A DNA stretch of 64,000 nucleotides, from positions 403,501 through 467,500 of the forward strand of contig NZ_AP026867.1 of the NCBI RefSeq assembly GCF_026000115.1, given 5' to 3'. The translations under genes and the position numbers were made by a program. The stretch is from Aureispira anguillae. Its GTDB lineage: Bacteria; Bacteroidota; Bacteroidia; Chitinophagales; Saprospiraceae. The notes under the pieces are model-generated. The model did no database searches, was not told the origin of the DNA, and worked only from the letters and a program-made list of their open reading frames with translations. Numbering within the stretch: the stretch's first letter is position 1; every line of letters begins with the position of its first letter. Below, in pieces: positions 59,463-63,098 of the stretch.

Positions 59463-60518
59463 ATGATTGATAAAAATACACCTGTATTAGTGACTGGAGG
59501 AAGTGGTTATATTGCTTCTTGGGTCGTCAAAAAATTACTCGAACAAGGTTATCTTGTTAATGCGACTGTTCGCAACAAATCAAAAATTGAAAAAGTTGAC
59601 CATCTGCTAAAATTGCAAACGGAGTTTCCTCAACGATTAAAATTATATGAAGCCGACTTATTAAAAAAGGGCTCTTTTGAAAAAGCAATGGAAGGCTGTG
59701 AATTGGTCATTCATATGGCCTCTCCTTTTAAAATTAATGTAAAAGATGCTCAAAAGGAATTGGTCGATCCTGCTTTGGAGGGAACCCGCAATATTCTCAA
59801 TCAGGTGAATGCTACGCCAAGTGTCAAACGGGTTGTATTAACGTCTAGTGTGGTCGCTATTTATGGTGATGCAGCAGATGCAGTTCTTACCAAAAATGGC
59901 ATTTTTACAGAGGAATATTGGAATACCTCTAGTTCTTTAAAACATCAGCCTTATAGTTATTCAAAAACATTGGCGGAACAAGAAGCTTGGAAGTTACAAA
60001 AGGCACAACAGCGTTGGGATTTAGTCGTCATTAATCCTTCTTTTGTGATGGGACCTTCTCTGAGCAATAGAAAGGATGGAGAGAGTACGGATTTTATGAT
60101 TCAAATGCTTTCAGGAAATTTCAAAACGGGAGTGCCTAATATGACTTTTGGCTTGGTGGATGTTCGAGATGTTGCAGAAGCCCATATTTTGGCGGGGACT
60201 AAAGCCTCGGCTTCGGGGCGTCATATCACTTGCAATCGTTCCCATACTATGTTGGAAATAGCGAAAATTCTTAAACAAGAATTTGGCACTAAATTTAAGT
60301 TGCCATCTAGTGAATTGCCTAAGTTTTTGCTCTATATCGTTGGTCCTTTAATGGGAGGTTTGTCTTGGAAGTTTATTAGTGGAAACGTTGGTTTTCCTTT
60401 AAATTTTGATAACAGTTATAGCCAAAAAGATCTAGGGCTTACGTACAGAAAGATTGCAGAAACCCTGAAAGATCATGCAGATCAATTGATAGAAAGTGGA
60501 CACGTTAAGCTGACTTAA
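59463..60518 (+). CDS. Extended SDR, dihydroflavonol-reductase-like NAD(P)-dependent reductase
   Basis: The 351-residue protein has the nucleotide-binding VLVTGGSGYIASWVVKKLL, an NADPH-type basic VRNKSK after strand 2, and VIHMASPF. The catalytic Tyr-Lys pair is in YSYSKTLAE, preceded by VVLTSSVVAIYG, and FVMGPS follows. This matches the DFR/cinnamoyl-CoA-reductase-like branch that reduces aldehydes or ketones. The substrate is unknown. It ends about 120 bases before the promoter of the aromatic operon. Confidence 0.9.
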   Translation: MIDKNTPVLVTGGSGYIASWVVKKLLEQGYLVNATVRNKSKIEKVDHLLKLQTEFPQRLKLYEADLLKKGSFEKAMEGCELVIHMASPFKINVKDAQKELVDPALEGTRNILNQVNATPSVKRVVLTSSVVAIYGDAADAVLTKNGIFTEEYWNTSSSLKHQPYSYSKTLAEQEAWKLQKAQQRWDLVVINPSFVMGPSLSNRKDGESTDFMIQMLSGNFKTGVPNMTFGLVDVRDVAEAHILAGTKASASGRHITCNRSHTMLEIAKILKQEFGTKFKLPSSELPKFLLYIVGPLMGGLSWKFISGNVGFPLNFDNSYSQKDLGLTYRKIAETLKDHADQLIESGHVKLT

Positions 60519-60642
60519 AAAATTAACGGAGTATTACTGAAAAATAATCAATACCATAAAAGAGGTTCATTTTCAGTGAATAAGGAAATCAGAACGGGCG
60601 TTCGTTGCAAGAAAAAAAAATAAAAAAAAATACAGCGTAGTA

Positions 60643-60673
60643 TTGCATCTTTCAAAATCTTTATTTAAACTTG
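60643..60673 (+). promoter_or_regulatory. Candidate promoter of the aromatic amino-acid operon
   Basis: TTG (60643-60645), a 20-base spacer, and TAAACTTG (60666-60673; one mismatch to TAnnTTTG) fit the Bacteroidota -33/-7 layout. Transcription would start near 60680, just ahead of the first leader peptide at 60703. Confidence 0.5.
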
Positions 60674-60702
60674 TAAAACAAAGACGGAATAAAAACAACA
60701 TC

Positions 60703-60771
60703 ATGACACTAATTAATAATACATTTTATAATAATAATTTTTACTTTTTTAACCAAAAAGGTAAGAGCTAA
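60703..60771 (+). CDS. Leader peptide 1, Phe/Tyr-rich (attenuator)
   Basis: This 22-codon ORF encodes MTLINNTFYNNNFYFFNQKG plus KS and ends with TAA at 60769-60771. Six of 22 residues are aromatic (F8, Y9, F13, Y14, F15, F16), clustered as FY and FYFF. It is followed by an intrinsic terminator at 60801-60835. The stop-codon region AAGAGCTAA contains GAGCT (60765-60769), which can pair with AGCTC (60803-60807) in the 5' arm of that terminator. Ribosome stalling at the Phe/Tyr codons would leave GAGCT free to form this antiterminator, whereas translation to the stop would cover it. It is too short for standard gene finders. The assignment is inferred from composition, position and RNA structure. 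Confidence 0.78.
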   Translation: MTLINNTFYNNNFYFFNQKGKS

Positions 60772-60800
60772 TGAAGTGTATTATATCCTAATATATTTAA

Positions 60801-60835
60801 AGAGCTCGAACTTAAATTCGGGCTCTTTTTTTTTT
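60801..60835 (+). terminator. Attenuator terminator 1
   Basis: AGAGCTCGAA pairs with TTCGGGCTCT (10 pairs including one G-U) around the loop CTTAAA, followed by a run of ten T. It stands 29 bases after the stop of leader peptide 1 and before any structural gene, so it is placed to cut transcription early. Confidence 0.9.
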
Positions 60836-60907
60836 GCTTATTTTTTAATACAACTTATTGTTCAATTCTCTTCTTAAACAACTTCGACATTAAAATCTAA
60901 AATAACA

Positions 60908-60976
60908 ATGCAACTTTCCTATTCAATTTATAATAATAATAATTTTTTCTTTTACAGCAGGTTTATGCCGAGCTAA
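60908..60976 (+). CDS. Leader peptide 2, Phe/Tyr-rich (attenuator)
   Basis: A second 22-codon ORF encodes MQLSYSIYNNNNFFFYSRFM plus PS and ends with TAA at 60974-60976. Seven of 22 residues are aromatic (Y5, Y8, F13, F14, F15, Y16, F19), with FFFY as a continuous run. It has the same length as leader 1 and the same YNNN(N)F core, so the two probably arose by duplication. The stop region contains CCGAGCT (60968-60974), which is perfectly complementary to AGCTCGG (61005-61011) in the 5' arm of the next terminator. This gives a 7-bp antiterminator that a ribosome at the stop codon would block. Confidence 0.85.
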   Translation: MQLSYSIYNNNNFFFYSRFMPS

Positions 60977-61011
60977 TAGGGAAGATATACCTATAACTTT
61001 TTGAAGCTCGG
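60968..61011 (+). promoter_or_regulatory. Antiterminator pairing of attenuator 2
   Basis: CCGAGCT at 60968-60974 overlaps the last codons and stop of leader 2. It pairs base for base with AGCTCGG at 61005-61011, in competition with terminator 2. The arrangement needs only two mutually exclusive hairpins instead of the classic three-stem leader. Confidence 0.75.
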
Positions 61012-61033
61012 ATTTTATCCGAGCTTTTTTTTT
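61004..61033 (+). terminator. Attenuator terminator 2
   Basis: AAGCTCGGAT and ATCCGAGCTT form a perfect 10-bp stem with a TTT loop, followed by nine T. It ends 22 bases before the ATG of the prephenate dehydratase gene, so readthrough is needed for operon expression. Confidence 0.95.
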
Positions 61034-61055
61034 GCCATCAACTATTTAAAATCGA

Positions 61056-61922
61056 ATGAAACACAACTATTATCAGAACAGCAAAGCCTCTGCCATCAAA
61101 AAAGTAGCCATACAAGGTATAAGAGGAGCATTTCACGAAGAAGCTGCAAGGCAGTGGTTTGAATCGGAGGCGATTGAAATTGTTCCAACTTTGTTGTTTA
61201 AGGACATGGTTAAGGCGGTAGCAGCAAAAGAAATTGAGCATGCAGTAATTGCCATAGAAAACACCATTTCAGGAACCATCCACCAAAATCTTCGTCTATT
61301 GTCCAGTTATCCTGTAGAAATTTGCGGTGAAATTAGCTTGCGAATTAGGCAAAATTTGGGCGTGTTACCAGGCACAAGCCTAAAAGATCTAACAGAAGTG
61401 CGCTCGCATTATATGGCTATTAATCAGTGCCGAAGATATTTTAAGGAACATCCTCAAATCAAGTTGGTGGAGGATATTGATACTGCACTTAGTGCTAAAA
61501 CCATTGCTCAACAACAATTAAAAACAGTTGGAGCGATAGGGAGTTTACAAGCAATGGATTTTTATGGTTTGGAAGTTATTGGAAGAAGTATAGAGACCGA
61601 TAAACACAATTATACACGTTTTTTTGTATTGGCGCCTAAGTCCGAAAAAAGACCTACAGAGGGATATAACAAAGTGACGATTAGTGCTGTTTTGCCACAT
61701 AAAGCAGGGAGCCTAAATCGGTTGTTGACCTTTTTCCAATTAGAGGCTATCAACCTTAGCAAGTTAGAATCTATCACCATTGTTGGGCAGCCGTATCGAT
61801 ATCGATTTATTATGGATTTGGAATTTGAGCGTGGTTACAATTTTGAAAATCAATTGGAACAACTACAAAAGCTCACTTGCAGTTATAAAATATTAGGATA
61901 TTATAATAGTAACAATCAATAG
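61056..61922 (+). CDS. pheA: Prephenate dehydratase
   Basis: This enzyme converts prephenate to phenylpyruvate, the committed step to phenylalanine. The catalytic domain starts KVAIQGIRGAFHEEAA and contains AVIAIENTISGTIHQN and GAIGSLQAMDFYGLEV. The TRF motif NYTRFFVLA has catalytic Thr187. A C-terminal ACT domain from about 205 has PHKAGSLNRLL (GALV-like region) and KLESITIV, where classical Phe-binding domains have ESRP, so feedback sensing may be altered. The enzyme is monofunctional, with no chorismate mutase domain; that activity is probably on the DAHP synthase two genes on. Two leader-peptide attenuators precede it, and the aminotransferase follows after three bases. Confidence 0.95.
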   Translation: MKHNYYQNSKASAIKKVAIQGIRGAFHEEAARQWFESEAIEIVPTLLFKDMVKAVAAKEIEHAVIAIENTISGTIHQNLRLLSSYPVEICGEISLRIRQNLGVLPGTSLKDLTEVRSHYMAINQCRRYFKEHPQIKLVEDIDTALSAKTIAQQQLKTVGAIGSLQAMDFYGLEVIGRSIETDKHNYTRFFVLAPKSEKRPTEGYNKVTISAVLPHKAGSLNRLLTFFQLEAINLSKLESITIVGQPYRYRFIMDLEFERGYNFENQLEQLQKLTCSYKILGYYNSNNQ

Positions 61923-61925
61923 ATT

Positions 61926-63098
61926 ATGAAAGTTGCATCAAGGGTTTTATCAATAGAAGCTTACTTTTTTGCTAAAAAATTAGCAGAAATAAAGGAATTA
62001 AAAACAAAGGGAAAACCAATTATCAATTTGGGGATTGGGAGCCCTGATTTAGAGCCACACCAAAAAGTACGTCAAGCACTTCAAGTAGCGACAGAAAAAA
62101 AAGGAAGTTATCAATACCAATCGTATCGAGGAATTGATGATCTGAGAATAGCGATCGCCAAGTGGTATCAAAAGATATACAAGGTTAAGTTGGATGAAAA
62201 GCATGAAGTCTTGCCTTTGATGGGATCTAAAGAAGGGATTAACTACATTTCTTTGGCTTATCTGGAAGCAGGGGATAAGGTATTGGTGCCCAATCCTGGA
62301 TATCCAGCTTATGCTGCTGCTGCTAGGATAGCTGGGGCAAAGGCGGTTTATTATGATTTAAAAGCGGATAAAAACTGGTATCCTGATTTTGAGCAATTGG
62401 AGCAGTTGGTGGATGAAGATTGTAAGATGATTTGGGTCAATTATCCTAATATGCCAACGACCCAAGCGGCTTCTATGGACGTTTTTGAGCAGTTATTAAA
62501 TTTTGCCAAAAAACACCAATTACTATTGTGTAATGACAATCCTTATAGTCTCATTTCATCTAGTTCTCCTAAGAGCTTGTTGAGTTTGCCAAATGCCAAA
62601 GACGTTGCGGTCGAACTTAATTCATTGAGCAAATCTCATAATATGGCAGGAGCTCGATTGGGGATGCTAGTAGGGCGACAAACGATTATAAGTGACATTT
62701 TTAAGGTCTATAGTAATTTTAGTTCAGGTATGTTTTTACCCATTCAAAAAGCAGCCATAGAGGCATTGGAATTGGATGCCTCTTGGTACAAAATGCTCAA
62801 TAAATTTTATATGGAACGCAGGCAGCTAGCACAAGCTATTTTAGCGGATTTGGGTTGCCAGTATAACCCTAGGGGAGCGGGACTATTTGTTTGGGGCAAA
62901 ATCCCTTCAGCATTTAGCGATTGCCATGAGCTCTCGGATCAGTTGCTTTATAAGGCCAATGTATTTGTTACACCAGGAAGCATTTTTGGTAGCAATGGCA
63001 GTCAGTATATCCGTATTTCTTTATGTGCTTCTTTAGAAGAATTAACAGAGGCAAAACAACGAATTAAACAACATCTTAACCTACCATTAGTTCGGTGA
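61926..63098 (+). CDS. Class I/II aminotransferase, probably aromatic/prephenate-type
   Basis: This is a fold-type I PLP aminotransferase: NLGIGSPDLEPH, YQYQSYRGIDDLR, GSKEGINYISLAYLEAGD, NPGYPAY, NYPNMPTTQAA, DNPYSLI, and Lys236 in LNSLSKSHNMAGARLG as Schiff-base lysine. YIRISLCAS near the end holds the carboxylate-binding Arg. Context in an operon with prephenate dehydratase and DAHP synthase suggests transamination of phenylpyruvate or hydroxyphenylpyruvate, or of prephenate. Sequence alone also fits LL-diaminopimelate-aminotransferase-like members. It is coupled to pheA (three-base gap). Confidence 0.9.
   Translation: MKVASRVLSIEAYFFAKKLAEIKELKTKGKPIINLGIGSPDLEPHQKVRQALQVATEKKGSYQYQSYRGIDDLRIAIAKWYQKIYKVKLDEKHEVLPLMGSKEGINYISLAYLEAGDKVLVPNPGYPAYAAAARIAGAKAVYYDLKADKNWYPDFEQLEQLVDEDCKMIWVNYPNMPTTQAASMDVFEQLLNFAKKHQLLLCNDNPYSLISSSSPKSLLSLPNAKDVAVELNSLSKSHNMAGARLGMLVGRQTIISDIFKVYSNFSSGMFLPIQKAAIEALELDASWYKMLNKFYMERRQLAQAILADLGCQYNPRGAGLFVWGKIPSAFSDCHELSDQLLYKANVFVTPGSIFGSNGSQYIRISLCASLEELTEAKQRIKQHLNLPLVR

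Follow-up and report, generated by a model that had tools for sequence, protein, structure and literature searches.

Two leader-peptide attenuators predicted in series before the pheA operon of Aureispira anguillae

The pheA–aminotransferase–DAHP synthase-like operon of Aureispira anguillae is preceded by two complete leader units, each consisting of a short reading frame with a cluster of Phe/Tyr codons, an antiterminator strand and an intrinsic terminator. We consider it probable, at roughly three chances in four, that these units are two ribosome-mediated attenuators that answer to the same signal and act one behind the other on a single transcript. For attenuation by ribosome position, the support is close to the most that comparing sequences can provide, and serial gating, for which the evidence is the arrangement of the units, is likely. 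Coordinates are given in Table 1 and refer to the window, that is, the whole 64,000-nucleotide stretch of DNA analysed.

The earlier note on this DNA described the downstream unit (unit 2). Its 22-codon leader frame is present as stated, and CCGAGCT at the end of the leader is an exact complement of AGCTCGG in the 5′ arm of the terminator; compared with 200 shuffled spacers, this helix has p = 0.02. The leader carries FFFY and three further aromatic codons (Y5, Y8, F19) rather than the four reported, and the terminator with its nine T is in place, although its stem folds with one base pair more than the 10 bp given. The single-unit picture has to be abandoned: a complete second unit (unit 1) at 60703–60835 had gone unnoticed. 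The antiterminator of unit 1 is weaker than that of unit 2, with 5 bp, a helix score of 13 and p = 0.04 against shuffled spacers. Shuffled spacers sequester the terminator arm equally well in 33/300 cases for unit 1 and 1/300 for unit 2. The end of the unit 1 terminator stem lies 79 nt from the ATG of leader 2. The pheA gene scores 176.7 bits with PRK11898.1, under the curated cut-off of 219 for that model, and the third gene is presumably DAHP synthase-like, an assignment made from its N-terminal sequence alone.

Table 1 Features of the pheA operon and its two predicted leader units in the window.
Feature	Position	Strand	Description
Putative −7 promoter box TAAACTTG	60666..60673	+	TAnnTTTG with 5/6 matches, −33 TTTG with 3/4; predicted start for both units
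Leader peptide 1 MTLINNTFYNNNFYFFNQKGKS	60703..60771	+	ORF translation; not in the list of the earlier note
Unit 1 1:2-type helix, 5′ strand	60716..60729	+	Partner 60771–60784; coordinates derived from motif positions
Unit 1 antiterminator 5′ strand GAGCT	60765..60769	+	14 nt after last Phe codon F16; pairs with 60803–60807
Unit 1 intrinsic terminator	60799..60835	+	12-bp stem, −15.3 kcal/mol, ten T
Second promoter-like box TATTTTTT, between units	60839..60846	+	5/6 bases, same score as 60666–60673
Leader peptide 2 MQLSYSIYNNNNFFFYSRFMPS	60908..60976	+	ATG 60908 to TAA 60976; 22 codons
Unit 2 1:2-type helix, 5′ strand	60914..60923	+	Partner 60975–60984
Unit 2 antiterminator 5′ strand CCGAGCT	60968..60974	+	Starts 12 nt after Y16; pairs with 61005–61011
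Unit 2 intrinsic terminator	61003..61033	+	11-bp stem, 3-nt loop, −15.0 kcal/mol, nine T; from sequence and folding
pheA, prephenate dehydratase, first structural gene	61056..61922	+	Best NCBIfam match PRK11898.1, E 5.3e-52
Aminotransferase, LL-diaminopimelate/aspartate aminotransferase type, operon gene 2	61926..63098	+	Subfamily matches under curated cut-offs
DAHP-synthase-like gene, third gene, 356 aa	63225..64000, continues beyond window end	+	L032: 2726–3796

For comparison, 110 pheA loci were gathered, 30 from related whole genomes and 80 from a named genome collection. Sixty related genomes were searched and 31 gave a pheA match, one of which is a fragment without a locus; those taken from the collection are its best 80 of 582 confirmed stretches, with a bias towards near relatives. 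All loci were oriented by tblastn; four with less than 200 nt upstream (L025, L036, L079, L086) were dropped, leaving 106. We counted as a unit any terminator-like hairpin preceded within 110 nt by the end of a leader frame that has 8–50 codons and contains at least four Phe/Tyr within six codons. In this set, which includes the best 80 of 582 collection stretches, at least one unit is present at 84/106 usable loci and two units, by the raw criteria, at 22/106. Dinucleotide shuffles yielded one or more units in 4/848 cases and two in 0/848, and the reverse complements in 1/106 and 0/106. The remaining 22/106 loci have no unit by this definition; at least one of them, L009, has a visible Phe/Tyr leader and a hairpin without a T run. 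Of 103 pheA leaders, 99 start with ATG and four with GTG, and a Shine-Dalgarno-like tetramer lies within 20 nt upstream of four of the starts and is absent from 99. Phe/Tyr leaders with terminators also stand before pheA in two records outside Bacteroidota, titled candidate division KSB1 (L070) and Chlorobi bacterium (L063).

Deduplication reduced 103 units to 95 for the helix tests, which score the best helix without gaps that the terminator 5′ arm can form with the sequence following the last aromatic codon. The mean score is 17.93 with the unit's own arm, 10.25 with the arms of other units and 9.37 for shuffled spacers, and the highest mean among 5000 random re-pairings is 12.14. Individually, 58/95 units have an antiterminator at p ≤ 0.05. 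Scoring by energy, on an earlier set of 93 units, gave the same picture, with −11.16 kcal/mol for own and −7.55 kcal/mol for swapped pairs. The covariation test found 57 distinct 6-nt cores among 85 units, each keeping its own match. Covariation of the antiterminator strand with the terminator arm across relatives, which the earlier note had proposed, is borne out by the difference between own and swapped pairs, and these comparisons point to an antiterminator that is mutually exclusive with the terminator and evolutionarily coupled to it.

Comparison of the loci shows, beside this anatomy of leader, terminator and antiterminator and its coupled change, a fixed distance between the aromatic codons and the antiterminator. 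Among the 85 units with a helix score of at least 14, the antiterminator starts 6–17 nt after the last aromatic codon in 83, with a median of 12 nt and an sd of 2.9; in shuffled spacers, 25.7% of 1850 such helices fall within that range and the sd is 14.7. Relative to the stop codon the position is loose (sd 10.7, −31 to +5), which argues that the aromatic codons, and not the stop, place the antiterminator. About 12 nt is similar to the span between the A site of a ribosome and its leading edge. Unit 1 of the window scores below 14 and is therefore outside the 85 units of this ruler. Unit 2 is an exception when measured from F19 (3 nt), which suggests that F19 of leader 2 is not a regulatory codon.

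The effect of ribosome position was modelled on RNA that extends to the end of the terminator 5′ arm, with the ribosome footprint blocked. The modelled antiterminator probability is 0.98–0.99 for stalls at F13–Y16 in unit 2 and 0.99–1.00 for stalls at F13–F16 in unit 1, and it drops to 0.00 once the stop codon of either leader occupies the A site, and for a stall at F19 of unit 2. In the model, a ribosome on the regulatory codons frees the antiterminator strand, while a ribosome further on hides it. On this model, the proposal that a stall on Phe or Tyr codons exposes CCGAGCT holds for F13–Y16 and finds no support for F19. When the full terminator is present, its probability is 0.95–1.00 in every state; the terminator wins at folding equilibrium, and the switch must therefore be kinetic, with the antiterminator forming first. 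In the model without a ribosome, the antiterminator is present while the arm emerges with a probability of 0.68 in unit 2 and 0.79–0.86 in unit 1. Since it forms fairly well under these conditions, read-through may conceivably occur without leader translation.

The unit had been described as having only two competing hairpins, but both units of the window contain a third helix, in which codons ahead of the aromatic cluster pair with a stretch behind the leader. This helix resembles the 1:2 (pause or protector) hairpin of classical attenuators. None of 100 shuffles was as good as the helix of unit 2, which can compete and lies upstream of a ribosome stalled at F13–Y16. Over the 95 units, the 1:2 helix scores 14.62 with its own partner and 13.08 with swapped partners, the highest of 5000 permutations being 14.38; it reaches p ≤ 0.05 in just 18/95 units.

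Two credible units are present at 19 loci, the window included (17 without near-copies), in the set that includes the best 80 of 582 collection stretches; these loci include Chitinophaga filiformis, Phaeodactylibacter xiamenensis and an Ancylomarina strain. L045, L088 and L093 were rejected as tandem loci, as their first units have no credible antiterminator and those of L088 and L093 overlap the next unit. On a pheA tree of 103 of the 106 loci, the tandem label changes 12 times by parsimony, with at least five changes forced by well supported branches. Shuffled labels require 17.8 changes on average, and 0/500 shuffles were as low as 12. On this reconstruction the tandem state is clustered, yet repeatedly gained or lost. 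By raw count among relatives, two units occur at 11/29 pheA, 1/29 trpE and 2/27 hisG loci (Fisher p for pheA 0.002 against trpE and 0.010 against hisG), with the caveats that one his case counts one leader twice, that the trp case is doubtful and that L021 and L022, both counted for pheA, are near-copies.

Between terminator stem 1 and ATG 2, 17/19 tandem loci have a spacer of 7–45 nt, which leaves too little room for a promoter at its normal position, so that in most tandem loci unit 2 must be transcribed via read-through of unit 1. In the window the spacer exceeds that of every other credible tandem locus but one (17 of 18; the exception is L071 with 119 nt), and it holds a promoter-like box equal in score to the one before unit 1, judged by the Bacteroidota consensus of TTTG and TAnnTTTG quoted in PMC7366714. 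This box at 60839 may or may not be a promoter. It lends some weight to an alternative that we regard as unlikely: that unit 2 works alone and unit 1 is decaying or spare, or that the two units are transcribed from separate promoters; either way, this genome would lack a serial gate. The weaker antiterminator of unit 1 and the frequent changes of the tandem state on the pheA tree fit the same alternative. However, the first ATG most often lies some 18–21 nt after the −7 box (71/81 box-bearing loci), and in the window this interval is 61 nt for the box at 60839 as against 29 nt for that at 60666. Promoter-like boxes lie before the first unit in 16/19 tandem and 50/62 single loci, compared with 269/840 shuffles, and all six fixed −7 bases are matched before unit 1 in 13/19 tandem loci and between units in none. 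The window itself is the one tandem locus of 19 with a box between its units; such boxes are rare yet not depleted as such, because shuffled intervals contain them in 119/950 cases. The 1:2 helix, moreover, is strongest in the first units of tandem pairs (own 17.3, swapped 12.7; 17 units), which also weighs against the alternative, and terminator 1 would end transcripts started upstream unless it were relieved. We therefore prefer two gates in series, with unit 2 of the window likely reached by read-through of unit 1.

For the serial arrangement we infer leader translation, stalling, termination, a single promoter and multiplication of the gates. RNA polymerase would start near 60680, and a ribosome would load on leader 1. 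If Phe-tRNA or Tyr-tRNA were scarce, the ribosome would stall on the aromatic cluster with its front edge just before the antiterminator strand; the strand, thus freed, would pair with the emerging terminator 5′ arm, and transcription would continue. With ample charged tRNA, the ribosome would advance and cover the antiterminator strand, and the terminator would form. A polymerase that has passed the first gate would encounter a second of like kind, so that read-through would approximate the product of the two gates, giving a low leak and a steeper response. If this is correct, the first ribosome must have loaded and be following close behind RNA polymerase by the time about 100 nt have been transcribed from the start site.

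Other means of reading the signal fare less well. T-boxes, riboswitches and systems with an RNA-binding protein also typically have terminators with alternative structures, but it is very improbable that one of these, instead of a stalled ribosome, acts on the terminators here. None of the 28 Rfam matches listed for 60400–61200 reaches its gathering score; Phe_leader (RF01859) gives 18.1 bits at the window pheA leader against a gathering score of 55, and at the pheA leader locus L002 no family, T-boxes and known riboswitches included, reaches gathering score. What is held across loci is the distance from codon to antiterminator and not the paired sequence, as the 57 cores in 85 units attest. 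Further, F/Y ranks first of 190 residue pairs (84 loci), ahead of FS (67), and the best pair without F or Y is IL (29). A role for the leader peptide as such, through stalling of its nascent chain or in trans as reported for peTrpL (PMC7298713), is more improbable still, given that the peptides vary widely among loci outside the aromatic cluster and that the antiterminator position follows the codons. On the leader peptides, pN/pS is 0.67 over 12 non-independent pairs, indicating weak purifying selection. Chance, in the form of low-complexity AT-rich DNA that encodes Phe/Tyr beside ordinary terminators, can be set aside almost entirely: TTT-rich DNA easily encodes Phe, and shuffles that keep the real terminators give at least one unit in 68/824 cases, but they give two in 2/824 (earlier 103-locus set), against 84/106 and 22/106 at the real loci.

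Leaders of this type also precede other operons of the genome. A His-run leader (MLLSNAHTHHHFHHLLHG...) with a terminator lies before hisG (L119, minus strand) and a WWW leader with a terminator before trpE (L120, plus strand); among relatives, own genome included, such leaders occur in 28/29 trpE and 20/27 hisG usable upstream stretches. A clear antiterminator is found in 10/25 trp units (median distance 20.5 nt) and 12/18 his units (median 16.5 nt), and the distance from codon to antiterminator is less tight in both than in the phe leaders. A second tandem pair is located before ilvE–ilvD (L121, C1:3138000–3148000, minus strand), where the Ile/Val leaders MSLNKSNIIIIINVVSLKLF and MQNRILSVQQIIVVIIILFVQTG are each followed by their own terminator. 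The ilvE leader was found in 3/27 usable upstream stretches, most ilvE matches being distant homologues, and is tandem in two of the three, the own genome and the same-genus L126. The own pheA, hisG, trpE and ilvE leaders match no Rfam family at gathering level; this includes the trpE leader, which is below the gathering score of the Bacteroid-trp RNA (RF01692), which we take to be a Trp leader. A SAM riboswitch (RF00162, 87.8 bits) precedes a homoserine-dehydrogenase gene of the same genome (L122:3122–3232, plus strand).

No pheA match was found in 29/60 related genomes, including six of eight same-genus relatives (G001, G002, G004–G007), which are 88–99% complete, and a loss of Phe synthesis in these pheA-less relatives is possible. 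The window pheA groups with L033, L034, L035 and L037 (support 100/100), which are three Bacteroidales-type records and one Flavobacteriales MAG, and not with the same-genus L021 and L022. The gene order pheA–aminotransferase–DAHP synthase-like is common to the window and L034, and L021 is without the intervening aminotransferase. A horizontal replacement of pheA in one of the two lines, that of the window or that of L021 and L022, is possible.

Beyond this operon, we lean towards the view that serial leader-peptide attenuators for the same signal are a recurrent design in Bacteroidota, found at pheA in several lineages and at ilvE in this genus, in which gates would be multiplied for low leak and steep response and leaders start without Shine-Dalgarno sequences. 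If so, they would represent a widespread amino-acid control system of the phylum that is matched by no Rfam family here. They would also provide a clean test of whether ribosomes closely trail RNA polymerase in a phylum that initiates without Shine-Dalgarno pairing, and the doubled form would be a natural experiment in sharpening a leaky terminator switch. The distance from codon to antiterminator could be used as an easy criterion for recognizing such leaders in genomes without annotation.

The classical pheA, trp and his attenuators of E. coli, whose sensitivity is the subject of PMC1183508, are leader-peptide systems in which the ribosome mediates the response. They share with the units described here a short leader with codons for the end product, an antiterminator that competes with a terminator, and a switch governed by ribosome position, which is predicted here. 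In contrast to them, two units for one signal precede one operon here, and 99/103 leader starts are without a Shine-Dalgarno-like tetramer. In Bacteroidetes/Chlorobi, some attenuators were reportedly predicted in a comparative study of 2004 by Vitreschak and colleagues.

Within the phylum, clues for leader-peptide attenuation have been given for amino-acid operons of Flavobacterium psychrophilum, together with a structured pheA 5′ element that is conserved in other genera and has no Rfam match (PMC9723704). The mechanism is thus an established one, and others have already suggested that the phylum uses it. Ribosome-mediated Phe/Tyr attenuation, as put forward in the earlier note, draws strong support from its recurrence, the swap tests and the codon ruler, agrees with the state model, and is not new to the phylum. 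The Flavobacteriaceae elements, of which those of pheA and hisG are conserved, concern the same phylum and the same genes; tandem units, a codon ruler and a phylum-wide spread, as found here, are not described in the part of PMC9723704 available to us. In Bacteroides, some long 5′ UTRs contain short ORFs that have been called reminiscent of leader peptides (PMC7366714), and the Bacteroid-trp RNA is listed among cis-regulatory motifs of Bacteroidetes in PMC2864571, whose accessible text mentions neither pheA nor tandem units.

Outside the phylum, upstream ORFs that contain Phe and Tyr codons have been presented as candidates before shikimate-pathway genes in five other bacterial genomes (PMC6429828). 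These resemble the present leaders in being Phe/Tyr-rich and preceding aromatic-pathway genes, but the sections at hand name no Bacteroidota and no tandem form. As of 2010, leader-peptide systems were described as unknown beyond Proteobacteria and Actinobacteria before the Firmicutes case of PMC2965389, the atypical ermC aside. In the literature searched, which was a limited open-access selection without supplements, we found no description of serial attenuators for the same signal or of the codon ruler.

The closest parallels each share part of this architecture. The tandem metE riboswitches of B. clausii (cited in PMC3641672) and the tandem terminators of the rimP leader (PMC2965389) place serial terminators on one leader, as do the units described here, although the excerpts consulted do not describe a leader-peptide sensor for either. 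The mgtCBR leader of Salmonella contains two short ORFs, each of which alters transcription (PMC3641672), as the two leaders are proposed to do here. It senses ATP and proline and, according to the same excerpt, has no counterpart of the two intrinsic terminators found in the tandem metE riboswitch, whereas in A. anguillae both leaders bear Phe/Tyr clusters, each with its own terminator and each predicted to sense the same signal.
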